DNA from: Acinetobacter larvae
GTDB taxonomy: Bacteria > Pseudomonadota > Gammaproteobacteria > Pseudomonadales > Moraxellaceae
DNA length: 64,000 nt
Reading direction: 5' to 3'
Assembly (NCBI RefSeq): GCF_001704115.1
Contig: NZ_CP016895.1
Coordinates: 434,001 to 498,000, forward strand
Below the pieces are notes generated by a model. That model saw only the letters and a list, made by a program, of their open reading frames with translations. It ran no database searches and was not told the origin of the DNA. The translations under genes and the position numbers were made by a program. Shown in pieces: positions 48,555 through 54,034 of the stretch (positions are counted from its first letter, which is position 1; every line of letters begins with the position of its first letter).

Positions 48555-48598
48555 GCTTTAGGTCATTTGTTTTGGGCGGCTGTTGCTGTGTTTTAATT

Positions 48599-48617
48599 GA
48601 TAATAATTACTATTATT
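48599..48617 (+). promoter_or_regulatory. Fur-box-like site before the FecI-type sigma gene
   Basis: GATAATAATTACTATTATT matches 14 of 19 positions of the Fur consensus and is a strong inverted hexamer array. It precedes a FecI-FecR-receptor set, the usual Fur target. The TTG at 48597 that opens the frame lies within this site, so the sigma start is downstream. Confidence 0.7.
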
Positions 48618-48656
48618 GGTAAATTAACCAAATTTCATTGCTACTGGCAAAGACTT

Positions 48657-49166
48657 ATGGCAGCTGGTCAAGAACAGATAATGGCTCATTATGTCGCGGA
48701 ACTTTATAAAAACCATAAGGGGTGGTTATATGGTTGGCTATATCAAAAATTAGGTTCGGTAGACACGGCTGAAGATGTTTTACACGATACATTTTTAAGA
48801 ATTATTCGTAGTCAGGAACTGTTTCAGATTCAACAACCCAAAGCTTTTCTGACCACAACCGCAAAACGTATTTTGATTGATCGTGCGCGGCGCGCTAAAA
48901 TTGAACAGGCTTATTTAGATTATTTAACGCAAGCAGCGCTGAGTTATGAGATTAGTCCTGAGCAAGTTGTGATGGCAATAGACAGTTTAGATCGGCTTGC
49001 TTATGCCTTAGAAGATTTGTCCTATCGTATGAAAATGGCTTTTTTATGGCATTATATCGATGACTTAAGTTTAAAAGAAATCGCAGCACGTTTAGGGGTC
49101 AGTAGTAAAACCATTCACCATGATTTGGTTTATGCATTAACACACTGCTATAAAGTACTACATTGA
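48657..49166 (+). CDS. ECF sigma factor, FecI type
   Basis: 169 residues from ATG 48657; ATG 48681 is nearly as likely, and neither has a strong Shine-Dalgarno. Directs RNA polymerase to iron-transport genes. Region 2 AEDVLHDTFLRIIRSQ and PKAFLTTTAKRILIDRARR; region 4 LEDLSYRMKMAFLWHYIDDLSLKEIAARLGVSSKTIHH. Followed 30 nt later by its FecR partner. Confidence 0.9.
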   Translation: MAAGQEQIMAHYVAELYKNHKGWLYGWLYQKLGSVDTAEDVLHDTFLRIIRSQELFQIQQPKAFLTTTAKRILIDRARRAKIEQAYLDYLTQAALSYEISPEQVVMAIDSLDRLAYALEDLSYRMKMAFLWHYIDDLSLKEIAARLGVSSKTIHHDLVYALTHCYKVLH

Positions 49167-49196
49167 ATTCGCCATCGTGCGCAAAGGAATATCTCA

Positions 49197-50180
49197 TTGT
49201 CTGAACTGCATCAGAATCCAGAAGATCAAGATCAACTGCTGAATGAGGCTGCCGATTGGTTACTGCGATTAAGTCATGACGATCTAGATATTGAGCAGCT
49301 ACAACAATTGCAACAATGGAAAATGCAAAGCCCTCAGCATCAGCAAGCTTTTGATAAAATGGCACAGTTTATTCAAGGTTTAGATGTCTTAAAACAGCAA
49401 CAAATTAAAAGTCAGCACCCACTAATTCGCAAGCATATCGTAAAGAAAAAATCGTTGAGCAAAACTGCTGCTAAATCACTCTTATTATTTATTGTTGCTG
49501 CGGGTTTGATTTATCAGTTGCCGATACAACGTTGGCGGGCCGATCAGTTGAATGCTGCTAAGCAATGGCAACAGCAAATATTGAGCGATCATAGTCAGAT
49601 TTTATTGGCTGGGAAGACTGCTTATAATATTGATTATTCAAATCAAAAGAGAAAAATTCAACTTTTAGAAGGTGATATTTGGGTTGATGTTGCCAAAGAT
49701 CATCAGCGACCGTTTATTGTGTCGGTTGGGGATGTGCAGATTGAAGCGCTAGGCACACAATTTGTAATCCGTCGCGATGCCCAACAGCTTGAAGTCAACA
49801 TGCTGGAATCTAAGACTAAAATTTATTCTGCCAGTCAACAATTTAAAAGCTTCCAACTCAATACTGGGCAGCGCGCGCGTATCCATGATGGACAGGTCAG
49901 TGTGCAAAATATTGATCAAAAGCAGGTTGCACAAGCATGGCAACAAAAAAAATTGGTGGTGAACGATATGCCATTAGATCAAGTTTTAACCATGTTGGAG
50001 AAATACCAAAATAGTAAGTATCTCTATAATCGTCAGCGCTTAAGTCAGTACAAAGTCACGGCCGTACTGCCACTTGATCAAACCGATACGGCTTTGGCGT
50101 TATTACAAGAACAGCTTTCTTTGCAGATTTATCCTGTTGGTTCGTTGCTGACATGGATTAAAGCAAAAAATAACAATTAA
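49197..50180 (+). CDS. FecR-family anti-sigma / sigma regulator
   Basis: 327 residues from TTG 49197, with AAAGGAAT about 8 nt upstream. Transmits receptor occupancy across the inner membrane to the FecI sigma. N-terminal DUF4880 domain (NEAADWLLRLS, W-x-x-x-SPQHQQAFDKM), a single membrane helix (about 95-112), then the periplasmic FecR domain LLEGDIWVDVAKDHQRPFIVSVGDVQIEALGTQF and a secretin/TonB-like short C-terminal domain. Confidence 0.9.
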   Translation: MSELHQNPEDQDQLLNEAADWLLRLSHDDLDIEQLQQLQQWKMQSPQHQQAFDKMAQFIQGLDVLKQQQIKSQHPLIRKHIVKKKSLSKTAAKSLLLFIVAAGLIYQLPIQRWRADQLNAAKQWQQQILSDHSQILLAGKTAYNIDYSNQKRKIQLLEGDIWVDVAKDHQRPFIVSVGDVQIEALGTQFVIRRDAQQLEVNMLESKTKIYSASQQFKSFQLNTGQRARIHDGQVSVQNIDQKQVAQAWQQKKLVVNDMPLDQVLTMLEKYQNSKYLYNRQRLSQYKVTAVLPLDQTDTALALLQEQLSLQIYPVGSLLTWIKAKNNN

Positions 50181-50245
50181 ATTTTCCGTTTCAGCATTCT
50201 GGTGCGTCTAAGTAAGTAGACAATCTGAAAATGAAGGAAAATATG

Positions 50246-52708
50246 ATGGCACATCGTGTTGCATTTCCAAAAAAATTAAAACCATTGGTATTTGCAGTTC
50301 ATCTGGCGACGGTTTCTTTGGCACTATTGCCGAGTCTGAGTTTTGCTGAGGCTATTGCGGTCAATATACCGGCAGGAAGCTTGGCTCAGGTTTTAAATCA
50401 ATACGCACTACAGACCGGTGTGAATATTGTATTGGATAGCCAAGCTTTAAGTGGTCATCGTAGTGCAGGTCTAAAAGGAAAATATGAGCTAGAACAAGGG
50501 TTTGCTGCACTATTACAGCATACTAATTTTGAAGTGAAACAGACCGCTCATGGTTATCGCTTACAAGAGAAAAATAAAAATACTGTAACGCCAAATACCA
50601 CAACGCTGCTACAAAATCATGCTGATGAGGACACGCAAGCACTGCCGGTGATTAGTTTGGTTGCAACACGTTCGGGTATTACAGAAGGTAAAAATAGCTA
50701 TACCACATCGCAAATGAATACGGCAACGCGGTTAAATTTATCCATGAAAGAAACACCGCAATCGACGACAGTGATTACCAAACAGCGTATTGATGATCAG
50801 AACATGACCAGCATTAATGATATGGTGCAAAGTGCGCCTGGATTAATTGTTGATAGCAGTAATGGGCCATCACGAACAGTATTTCGTGCACGTGGCTTTG
50901 ATATCGATAATATTATGTATGATGGTCTACCTTCACAATATGATCCGATTGCTGTCGGTGTCAGTACCAATATGGCGATGTTGGATCGGGTTGAGGTGGT
51001 GCGTGGTGCAACAGGTTTAATTACCGGAACAGGTAATCCCTCTGCGGCGATTAATGTGGTACGTAAACGACCAACAGCTGAGCCGAAAGTGAGTTTAACC
51101 GGCAGTGTTGGACGTTGGAATAACTATCGCGGTGAAATCGATGCCTCATCTAAGCTCAATAGCAGCGGTAGTGTCCGTGGTCGTGTAGTTGGCTCTTATC
51201 AAGACCAAGATACGTTTAGAGAGGGTGAAGAAGCAGAGCATGGTCTACTTTATGGCGCACTTGAAATAGATTTAAGCCCACAAGCAACTTTATTGACAGG
51301 GATTTCTTATCAAAAAGATTATAACAATAGTTTCTGGGGTGGTATTCCACTTGGAGCAGATGGACAACACATCAAAGTTCCTCGCTCAACCAATCCTGCG
51401 AATGATTGGGAAGATAAAACCACACGATTAACCACATTATTTACAGACTTAGAATATCGTTTTGATAATGACTGGAAATTGCGCGCAGCGGTCATGAAAT
51501 CATGGAATGACGGTATATTTTCTGGTACGTATTTAAATTATACGCCGGCACGGGGTTTTGCTTATTCGGCTTATCAAGGCAAATATGATATTAATAACAC
51601 AGGCGTTGATGTGTTTTTAAATGGACCTTATCAGTTATTTGGGCGTAGCCATGAAGCTGGTTTTGGTCTAAGTCAACGCAGTACCCGTAGCAAGCTCCAT
51701 AATTATTCGGGCGGTGGTTTTTATGGTGACCATCTTGATCCATTGAATCTTGATAAAATTGCTAAACCGGATTTTCAATATAGCGGTTCTAGAACGACTG
51801 AAATTGCACAACATGGTTTTAATGCCATGACTCGTCTGAATTTAGCAGATTCTTTAAAACTGATTTTAGGTGGACGCATAGACTGGTATGAATATAAAGA
51901 TTTTGCCGGCAGCAGCGGTTATAAAGTCTCGGATGAACTGACCAGTTATGCCGGCATCATTTATGATCTCAATCCCAATCATGCGGTATATGCGAGTTAT
52001 ACGACGATTTTTCAGCCACAAAATAACAAAGATATAAATCGTAAGATCATCAAACCCATCACCGGCAATAACTATGAACTGGGTATTAAGGGTGAATACT
52101 TTGATGGCGCTTTAAATGCCAGTGCAGCATTATTTCGAATCAATCAAGAGAATCGTGCGAAAACTTTAGCCGATCAGAGTGCTTGCCCAGAAGATTTAAA
52201 TAACTCATGTGCCGAAGCATCGGGTCTGGTACGCAGTGATGGTTTTGATTTAGAGTTGCAAGGTGCTTTGAGCTCTGCTTGGCAATTGGGCGCGGGCTAT
52301 AGTTATGTCAAAGCACGGTATAAAAAAGATAAAGACCCTGCAAAAGTTGGACAGATATTTGAAAGTAATGCACCGAAAAAAGTTTTTAAACTGACCAGCT
52401 CTTATATTTTACCAACTGAAAATAATAATTGGCGCGTAGGTGGTACGCTGTATTGGCAGGATACAATTTTCAATAATGTCACCAATATGGGGGCAGCAAC
52501 TGATTATCGCGTGGAGCAAAAAGCCTATGCTTTATTAGACTTGATGGTGGCTTATCAGTGGAATCAAAACCTTGATCTACAGTTAAATATTAATAATGTC
52601 TTTGATAAAGAATACTATCGAGGCATTGCTTCAGATATGGGCTGGTTCCCTATGGGCAGTTATGGTGATCCACGTAATGCGGTCTTTACGGTTCGCTATA
52701 AATTTTAA
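50246..52708 (+). CDS. TonB-dependent siderophore receptor with signalling (STN) domain
   Basis: 820 residues from ATG 50246 with AAGGAAA at the right distance. Outer-membrane uptake transducer. Signal peptide ending SLSFAEA, STN domain (about 28-110: IPAGSLAQVLNQYALQTGVN), a linker, TonB box region near VISLVATR, plug domain with VITKQRIDDQNMTSINDMVQSAPG and VEVVRGATGLITGTGNPSAAINVVRKRP, and a 22-strand barrel ending in a terminal Phe (YKF). Ligand unknown; FoxA/FpvA-like hydroxamate receptors are the nearest in shape. Confidence 0.92.
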   Translation: MAHRVAFPKKLKPLVFAVHLATVSLALLPSLSFAEAIAVNIPAGSLAQVLNQYALQTGVNIVLDSQALSGHRSAGLKGKYELEQGFAALLQHTNFEVKQTAHGYRLQEKNKNTVTPNTTTLLQNHADEDTQALPVISLVATRSGITEGKNSYTTSQMNTATRLNLSMKETPQSTTVITKQRIDDQNMTSINDMVQSAPGLIVDSSNGPSRTVFRARGFDIDNIMYDGLPSQYDPIAVGVSTNMAMLDRVEVVRGATGLITGTGNPSAAINVVRKRPTAEPKVSLTGSVGRWNNYRGEIDASSKLNSSGSVRGRVVGSYQDQDTFREGEEAEHGLLYGALEIDLSPQATLLTGISYQKDYNNSFWGGIPLGADGQHIKVPRSTNPANDWEDKTTRLTTLFTDLEYRFDNDWKLRAAVMKSWNDGIFSGTYLNYTPARGFAYSAYQGKYDINNTGVDVFLNGPYQLFGRSHEAGFGLSQRSTRSKLHNYSGGGFYGDHLDPLNLDKIAKPDFQYSGSRTTEIAQHGFNAMTRLNLADSLKLILGGRIDWYEYKDFAGSSGYKVSDELTSYAGIIYDLNPNHAVYASYTTIFQPQNNKDINRKIIKPITGNNYELGIKGEYFDGALNASAALFRINQENRAKTLADQSACPEDLNNSCAEASGLVRSDGFDLELQGALSSAWQLGAGYSYVKARYKKDKDPAKVGQIFESNAPKKVFKLTSSYILPTENNNWRVGGTLYWQDTIFNNVTNMGAATDYRVEQKAYALLDLMVAYQWNQNLDLQLNINNVFDKEYYRGIASDMGWFPMGSYGDPRNAVFTVRYKF

Positions 52709-53117: not shown

Positions 53118-53502
53118 CTACGCTGGACCCTATCAGCTAAAGCCTAGTCGAGTTGCTGTCATTGTTGTTTGGGGCATGATGGCATGCTTGGCTGGGCTAT
53201 TTTATTACTTGTTAGATGGCATGTTGATGCTCTTGTGCTGTGTGGCATTGTTACTTATATATTGGCAATTTAATAAATCAAATAAAGTAATTGCTTTACA
53301 GGCTCTGGATGACAACTTGTGGGTTCTACAGTATCAAGCTGTGTCACAGCCTCGACAGGTCCATATTTTGAAATGGCTGGATCATCAAGCCTATATAGTG
53401 TTGTATTTTCAGGAAGCTAAGCTCGCACCATTAATCATTTGGTATGATCAAGTGAGTTACCAACAGTGGAAAAATTTAAAAGTGTGCGCAAACCTCAGAT
53501 AA
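53089..53502 (+). CDS. YgfX-like membrane protein
   Basis: 137 residues. Two membrane helices (about 23-62) at the N-terminus followed by a small beta domain (LQALDDNLWVLQYQ..., IVLYFQEAKLAPLIIWYDQV), the YgfX/CptA arrangement. Overlaps sdhE by 29 bp, as this pair does elsewhere. Sequence identity to E. coli YgfX is low; assignment rests on topology and context. Confidence 0.72.
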   Translation: MSTHQIVSNNYAGPYQLKPSRVAVIVVWGMMACLAGLFYYLLDGMLMLLCCVALLLIYWQFNKSNKVIALQALDDNLWVLQYQAVSQPRQVHILKWLDHQAYIVLYFQEAKLAPLIIWYDQVSYQQWKNLKVCANLR

Positions 53503-53639
53503 TTGTTAGACAGCGCTAAAATACTTTGTTTGTAATAAATAGTTTAAAATCAATAGTTTAATATTAATATTTTAACATTCATTAAAAATTGTCAGACATA
53601 TATTCAAGAAAATGCCAATTTATCAAATTGTTAGACAAT
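53501..53639 (+). repeat. Three spaced copies of AATTGTYAGACA
   Basis: AATTGTTAGACA at 53501-53512 and 53626-53637, and AATTGTCAGACA at 53587-53598. The last copy is part of the dyad ATTGT-TAG-ACAAT (53627-53639). The sequence between is very AT-rich. Looks like repeated binding sites upstream of the RNA element that follows; no protein is implied. Confidence 0.6.
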
Positions 53640-53702
53640 CATGCCGCTGAAAACACAAACATATGCTACATTGTTTTTAACGAAGATTTTCTAGATAGCA
53701 AT

Positions 53703-53864
53703 TTAGTTAATCTCCAACTAAGATCACGGATGGTCGTTCAGCACAGGTAACTGCGCAAATGGGGGCGTGACATTAGTAGAGTTTAACGCCAATATAAATC
53801 CCGACTGGGGATTTGCCGTTTGATAAGTAGCATGTGCTGAACCGTCGCAATGCTACTTTTTTTT
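53703..53864 (+). ncRNA. Candidate structured RNA with intrinsic terminator, family unknown
   Basis: Ordered elements: hairpin TTAGTT/AACTAA (53703-53721); arm GTTCAGCAC (53736-53744) perfectly complementary to GTGCTGAAC (53834-53842); inside this, GGCGT/ACGCC (53764-53790) and AAATCCC/GGGATTT (53796-53814); then AAGTAGCAT (53825-53833) / ATGCTACTT (53850-53858) with eight T (53857-53864). The long-range 3' arm sits in the terminator loop, so the two form a pseudoknot or compete. It does not match TPP, FMN, cobalamin, glycine, SRP, tmRNA or 6S signatures I know. Could be an sRNA or a riboswitch-like leader of the rhombosortase gene 170 nt on. Confidence 0.6.
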
Positions 53865-54034
53865 ATCTCAATTTCAGTCATAATCTCTTTTCAGACCTTC
53901 ATTTTTTGTTGCGTATAGCGTGCAAACAGCACAGAGCGCAACATATTGTTAACCATTACTCTTTTGTTAGAACACTTTTCATCCTTAGCCTGAGTCGCTC
54001 ATTGCAATTGAGCATCACAAAGGAGTCAAGTCGT

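Follow-up and report, generated by a model that had tools for sequence, protein, structure and literature searches.

Background

In E. coli, SgrS/SgrT, Spot 42/SpfP and AzuC/AzuR are dual-function systems, in which one transcript both encodes a small protein and acts as a regulatory RNA. The element described here, from Acinetobacter larvae, may share this organization in most species; it differs in that the coding part is undetectable in 14 of 129 loci, where the RNA stays. In A. baumannii, more than 100 sRNAs are reported, few of them with validated targets (PMC12802169). Among the RNAs treated in PMC12802169 and PMC11472050, Aar is Hfq-associated, ends in an intrinsic terminator with poly(U), is conserved mainly toward its 3' end and is found in Acinetobacter only; HemZ and PtaZ are Hfq-associated 3'-UTR sRNAs. 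The element shares with Aar, as described in PMC11472050 and PMC12802169, the poly(U) terminator, the stronger 3' conservation and the restriction to one genus. Compared by description, it differs from Aar, HemZ and PtaZ in adjoining sdhE.

The gene number of gltB (ABUW_0298) places the locus, by interpolation, near 300 kb of strain AB5075, and at that interpolated position Table 1 of PMC5320573 has no sRNA between 244,272 and 407,081. Nor is an RNA named at the locus in the consulted parts of PMC5320573, PMC12802169, PMC11472050, PMC12042122, PMC6422896 and PMC12604733; it may already be annotated elsewhere, for example in supplementary sRNA tables. Among the article main texts searched, four 12-nt loop strings (both strands, in DNA and RNA letters) occurred in six, none of which has a title about Acinetobacter. 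An sRNA that occurs in most Acinetobacter species, that combines an unvarying loop with a promoter box, and that has variants in nature without the peptide or without the loop would provide a comparison set for finding regulated targets, including in the non-pathogenic A. baylyi.

The element in A. larvae

The DNA analyzed (the window) is a stretch of 64,000 nt, positions 434001-498000 of a 3.74-Mb contig, and the element lies on its forward strand at 53703-53864 as the only copy in that contig. The nested stems, the 9-nt long-range complement and the T8 terminator that an initial annotation had placed in these 162 nt were all confirmed by direct reading. The terminator hairpin, SL2 (53825-53858), has the arms GTAGCAT (53827-53833) and ATGCTAC (53850-53856) and leads into the T8 tail (53857-53864). 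It was missed by a simple terminator scan because the scan permits loops of at most 8 nt. Within SL2 stands GAACCGTCGC (53839-53848), whose apical-loop part is GAACCGTC (53839-53846). This part is unpaired in the centroid fold, and the minimum-energy fold puts two pairs inside it. SL2 is preceded by an AU-rich linker, TTGATAAG (53820-53827; TTNATAAG in its genus form), that enters the terminator stem, and by a smaller hairpin, SL1 (53796-53814), which has an AAATCCC/GGGATTT stem in the window. The 5' part (53703-53794) forms a single extended hairpin of nested stems (-26.6 kcal/mol, z -2.7), equaled by 2 of 200 shuffles; the same number of shuffles equals SL2 (39 nt, z -3.2).

When the start is set by promoter spacing and the end by the terminator, the predicted transcript runs from 53679 to 53864 on the forward strand. 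It would thus be about 186 nt long in the A. larvae genome, with a 5' end about 24 nt ahead of the boundary at 53703 originally given. The covariance models of Rfam 15 gave no match at the gathering threshold anywhere in the window; between 53500 and 54050, there were three chance-level matches (E of at least 4.6), all outside 53703-53864. Six ORFs of at least 20 aa overlap 53640-53880, the longest being the frame of the rhombosortase, opened by a GTG that lies within the terminator, and none of the six resembles the mini-protein encoded by relatives.

Distribution and conservation of the 3' module

When all 162 nt were used as a DNA query, 145 of 175 Acinetobacter genomes matched, each once, and relatives at the 3' end only. 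No match in a relative begins before query position 78, and most begin at 110 or 118; the first 77 nt have no DNA match in the other 174 Acinetobacter genomes. A covariance model found the element once in each of 148 of the 175 genomes (E≤0.01), leaving 27 without a match. A pattern search of 348 genomes of the family also returned 145, with none among the 173 outside Acinetobacter and none for a reversed-pattern control. The covariance model was applied to 40 of these 173, the remaining 133 being covered by the pattern alone, and gave four weak matches (E 0.0096-0.08), none with AACCGT in the hairpin and none near homologs of nine window genes. Across one genome per species (84,980 species), an exact degenerate hairpin pattern produced 106 records, all from Acinetobacter. 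The 106 named loci are not independent of the unnamed ones, as many lie on the same contigs.

From the 145 genomes of the DNA search, 130 loci were taken and 129 aligned; L130 (genome G069), with more than 5 mismatches, was handled apart. Among the 129, there is almost no variation between TTNATAAG and the end of the terminator, the pairs that close the loop included; each tail position is T in at least 128 loci, GAACCGTCGC is the same in all, and conservation is weak at 18-60 nt upstream. These loci were chosen for resembling the hairpin with no more than 5 mismatches, so that hairpin conservation is inflated and divergent copies are missed. The three weakest, divergent copies (L288, L291 and L264, in genomes G069, G057 and G013) still adjoin sdhE and retain AACCGTCG or GAACCGT, the rest of their hairpins being different. 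Genome G118, which has no covariance-model match, retains the terminator stem with the loop replaced (L267, about 2230-2280). This variant represents a natural control, a stem without the loop.

The sequence GCCYAAAATTT, the 11 nt past T8 (53865-53875 in the window), is conserved in most of the 129 loci and has diverged in the window. Its conservation is unexplained by an RNA that ends at T8.

Gene neighborhood

Upstream of the element, sdhE is present at 92 of the 106 named loci; at the remaining 14, the upstream DNA is shorter than 960 nt. Downstream in the window is a rhombosortase gene, above the NCBIfam cut-off, that starts about 170 nt past the end of the terminator. A rhombosortase was found in 87 of the 106 loci (of the other 19, 16 have too little downstream DNA and 3 have enough room), and in 85 of the 87, it begins 1.3-1.43 kb downstream. 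Close placement, as in the window, is seen among the 87 only at two A. rudis loci. Under a stricter cut-off, another gene stands between the element and the distant rhombosortase in 84 of 84 loci. This intervening gene encodes a lipoprotein-like product of 374 aa with no Pfam family above cut-off (L157:2397-3521) and was not found in the window or at the two A. rudis loci.

Base pairing within the element

The arm GTTCAGCAC (53736-53744) has an exact complement, GTGCTGAAC (53834-53842), 90 nt away in the terminator loop, and the stretch complementary to the loop extends, with a 3-nt bulge, over 53728-53745. A complement of 9 nt or longer arises in 28 of 5000 shuffles, and one of equal duplex energy, with the 3-nt bulge allowed, in 18 of 5000. 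Among the 129 loci, a perfect complement of at least 9 nt to the loop occurs in the window only, and the complement attains the 5% shuffle level in 6 of 123 distinct loci, which is the null rate. The loop complement is unusual within the window and not conserved. Long-range loop pairing as a feature of the genus was rejected on these chance-level rates, and with it the suggestion of a conserved pseudoknot or anti-terminator.

Conservation of pairing was examined in SL1 using 233 loci, which reduce to 106 distinct rows and 44 representatives below 70% identity. Many relatives keep the pairing of SL1 and change its sequence: a strong hairpin is found in 20 of the 44 diverged representatives, where 500 mixed-half runs gave 2.6 on average and 7.2 at most, and in 39 of the 106 rows, no more than 2 of 50 shuffles fold equally well. 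SL1 falls below a score of 8 in 53 of the 106 rows, and there are clades in which it is weak or missing. In SL2, 99.4% of cells are paired, and 7 of 103 rows have CG in place of UA at one pair, both sides having changed; the count of two-sided changes is matched by 236 of 500 shuffles. Covariation in SL2 comes down to that one pair, and since the hairpin hardly varies, covariation is uninformative beyond it. Of the compensatory changes by which the stems were to be judged, there is pairing-only conservation in SL1 and a single pair in SL2, and the 5' nested stems are specific to the window by DNA search.

Predicted promoter and candidate regulator

The three AATTGTYAGACA boxes reported ahead of the element are present, at 53501, 53587 and 53626. 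As matches to TTGTYWGACAA on the forward strand, they read TTGTTAGACAG (distal, 53503-53513), TTGTCAGACAT (middle, 53589-53599, 39 nt ahead of the proximal box) and TTGTTAGACAA (proximal, 53628-53638). When the window was shuffled 100 times, 10 of the shuffled sequences had three or more boxes within one mismatch. In the relatives, the box (one mismatch) occurs 1.74 times per 450 nt upstream compared to 0.128 in flanks, a 13.6-fold enrichment; no box is present within 450 nt at 22 of 129 loci, including 5 of the 14 that lack the mini-ORF.

A predicted -10 element, TACATT preceded by TG (53667-53672), lies 39 nt from the start of the proximal box, whose center would then be near -46 of the predicted start. 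When 87 distinct loci were aligned on the nearest box, TACATT appeared at 40 nt and a less perfect second box 40 nt further upstream. With up to one mismatch, TACATT is found 39-41 nt after the box in 77 of the 87, and in 0-5 of the 87 at six other spacings; no -35 stands out in this alignment. The boxes and the -10 at fixed spacing suggest that the element has its own promoter, and the position of the box near -46, where no -35 accompanies it, hints at an activator.

A candidate type of regulator comes from Pseudomonas aeruginosa. AlkR, a GntR/VanR regulator, is described in PMC12042122 as a repressor that is released by C16 and C18 acyl-CoA. Its footprinted site in that account, ATTGTCAGACAAT, matches the boxes here, a comparison of binding sites only. 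Because AlkR is a repressor in P. aeruginosa, the match is a lead and not an identification.

Of 12 genomes tried, 9 contain the box in its exact 15-nt form. The exact box AATTGTYWGACAATT is also found ahead of genes for similar repeat-rich proteins (L304, L296, L305, L310 and L307, at about 1501-1515), two of which, when scanned, had a Pfam apolipoprotein match below cut-off, and the box also precedes a gene for a PF10118 hydrolase. Its presence before further genes in several Acinetobacter genomes suggests a shared regulon.

The upstream mini-protein

Closely upstream of the element, 115 of the 129 loci have an ORF for a small membrane-like peptide, mostly of about 30-50 aa. Its pN/pS of 0.24, obtained from 111 ORF sequences by comparing only those pairs that have the same length and are 75-99.5% identical, pairs which share ancestry, indicates purifying selection. 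Pfam offers only a sub-cut-off match to DUF3180 and NCBIfam none; in a large protein database, 12 unnamed proteins match. The window and 13 other loci have no recognizable copy of the ORF, and in all 14, GAACCGTCGC is unchanged. This retention favors a function of the RNA and is the main reason for thinking that the RNA acts alone.

Proposed function and alternative explanations

We consider the element to be, with a probability of roughly 0.7, an Acinetobacter gene for a small regulatory RNA with a conserved SL1-linker-SL2 module. This reading draws on conservation, structure, single copy, adjacency to sdhE, the promoter-like layout, and the selection on the peptide together with its absence in the window. 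From what was first proposed, a structured RNA outside Rfam and an independent sRNA are retained, and control of the rhombosortase and a conserved pseudoknot are not. The RNA is probably trans-acting, contacting its targets through the loop, and accompanied by a small protein in most species. A DNA-binding regulator would act at the TTGTYWGACAA boxes of a promoter that has a -10 and no conserved -35. The functional part of the transcript would be the 3' module, composed of SL1, the AU-rich linker and SL2 with its U8 tail. The invariant loop, GAACCGUC, would contact other RNAs by base pairing or, less likely, a protein, and such contacts would probably occur on Hfq. Of the features expected of an Hfq-dependent trans-acting sRNA, the sequence shows a Rho-independent terminator followed by a long run of U and a conserved unpaired loop as a seed, GAACCGTC, identical at all 129 loci. 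Most species would additionally encode the small membrane protein in this stretch, and A. larvae would retain the RNA module alone. A fuller version of this reading can be put forward only tentatively: a dual-function RNA of the whole genus under a GntR-type regulator, which perhaps senses long-chain acyl-CoA, whose coding half has been lost repeatedly while the RNA half stayed frozen, and which in the window has gained a stretch that masks the seed.

The conserved piece might instead be the 3' UTR and terminator of the membrane mini-protein gene, the window copy being a decaying remnant. The ORF that the element follows so closely in 115 of 129 loci, with its pN/pS of 0.24, is what such a view predicts, but a plain terminator has no need of an invariant loop, G118 shows that the stem is possible without it, and all 14 loci with no detectable ORF, the window among them, have the identical loop; we regard this explanation as rather doubtful. 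The near-invariance of the loop and its closing pairs would also fit a protein-binding or RNA-processing site in place of a base-pairing seed. A 17-nt antisense of the loop, allowing 3 mismatches, found 7 places in its own genome (one being the gene itself), compared to 9 for a control, and no target stood out, which counts against the preferred reading and is in keeping with such a site. To our knowledge, however, the loop resembles no known protein-binding motif, and we judge this possibility unlikely.

Even less can be said for a riboswitch or attenuator in which pairing of the loop with upstream sequence controls the rhombosortase, as the initial annotation had entertained. The window itself seems to invite it, given the roughly 170 nt between terminator and rhombosortase start and a complement matched in only 18 of 5000 shuffles. 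Across the genus, however, the complement is not conserved, the first 77 nt have no DNA match in the other 174 genomes, and 85 of the 87 loci with a rhombosortase are arranged differently, another gene intervening in all 84 that pass the stricter cut-off. A rhombosortase leader is rejected because of this gene order, and the element probably does not switch the neighboring protease gene; we take the riboswitch to be very improbable. A DNA element, for example an attachment site for mobile elements, would account for the single copy and for conservation that extends 11 nt past T8. Yet the two-sided pair change in SL2 and the pairing-only conservation of SL1 point to RNA, and the same upstream neighbor, sdhE, recurs in 92 of 106 named loci, making a DNA site extremely improbable. 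The small regulatory RNA is the reading that we prefer.

Further upstream in the window, beyond sdhE, genes for an ECF sigma factor, a FecR-type regulator and a TonB receptor lie in a row (48597-52708), a set that we take to be typical of iron uptake.
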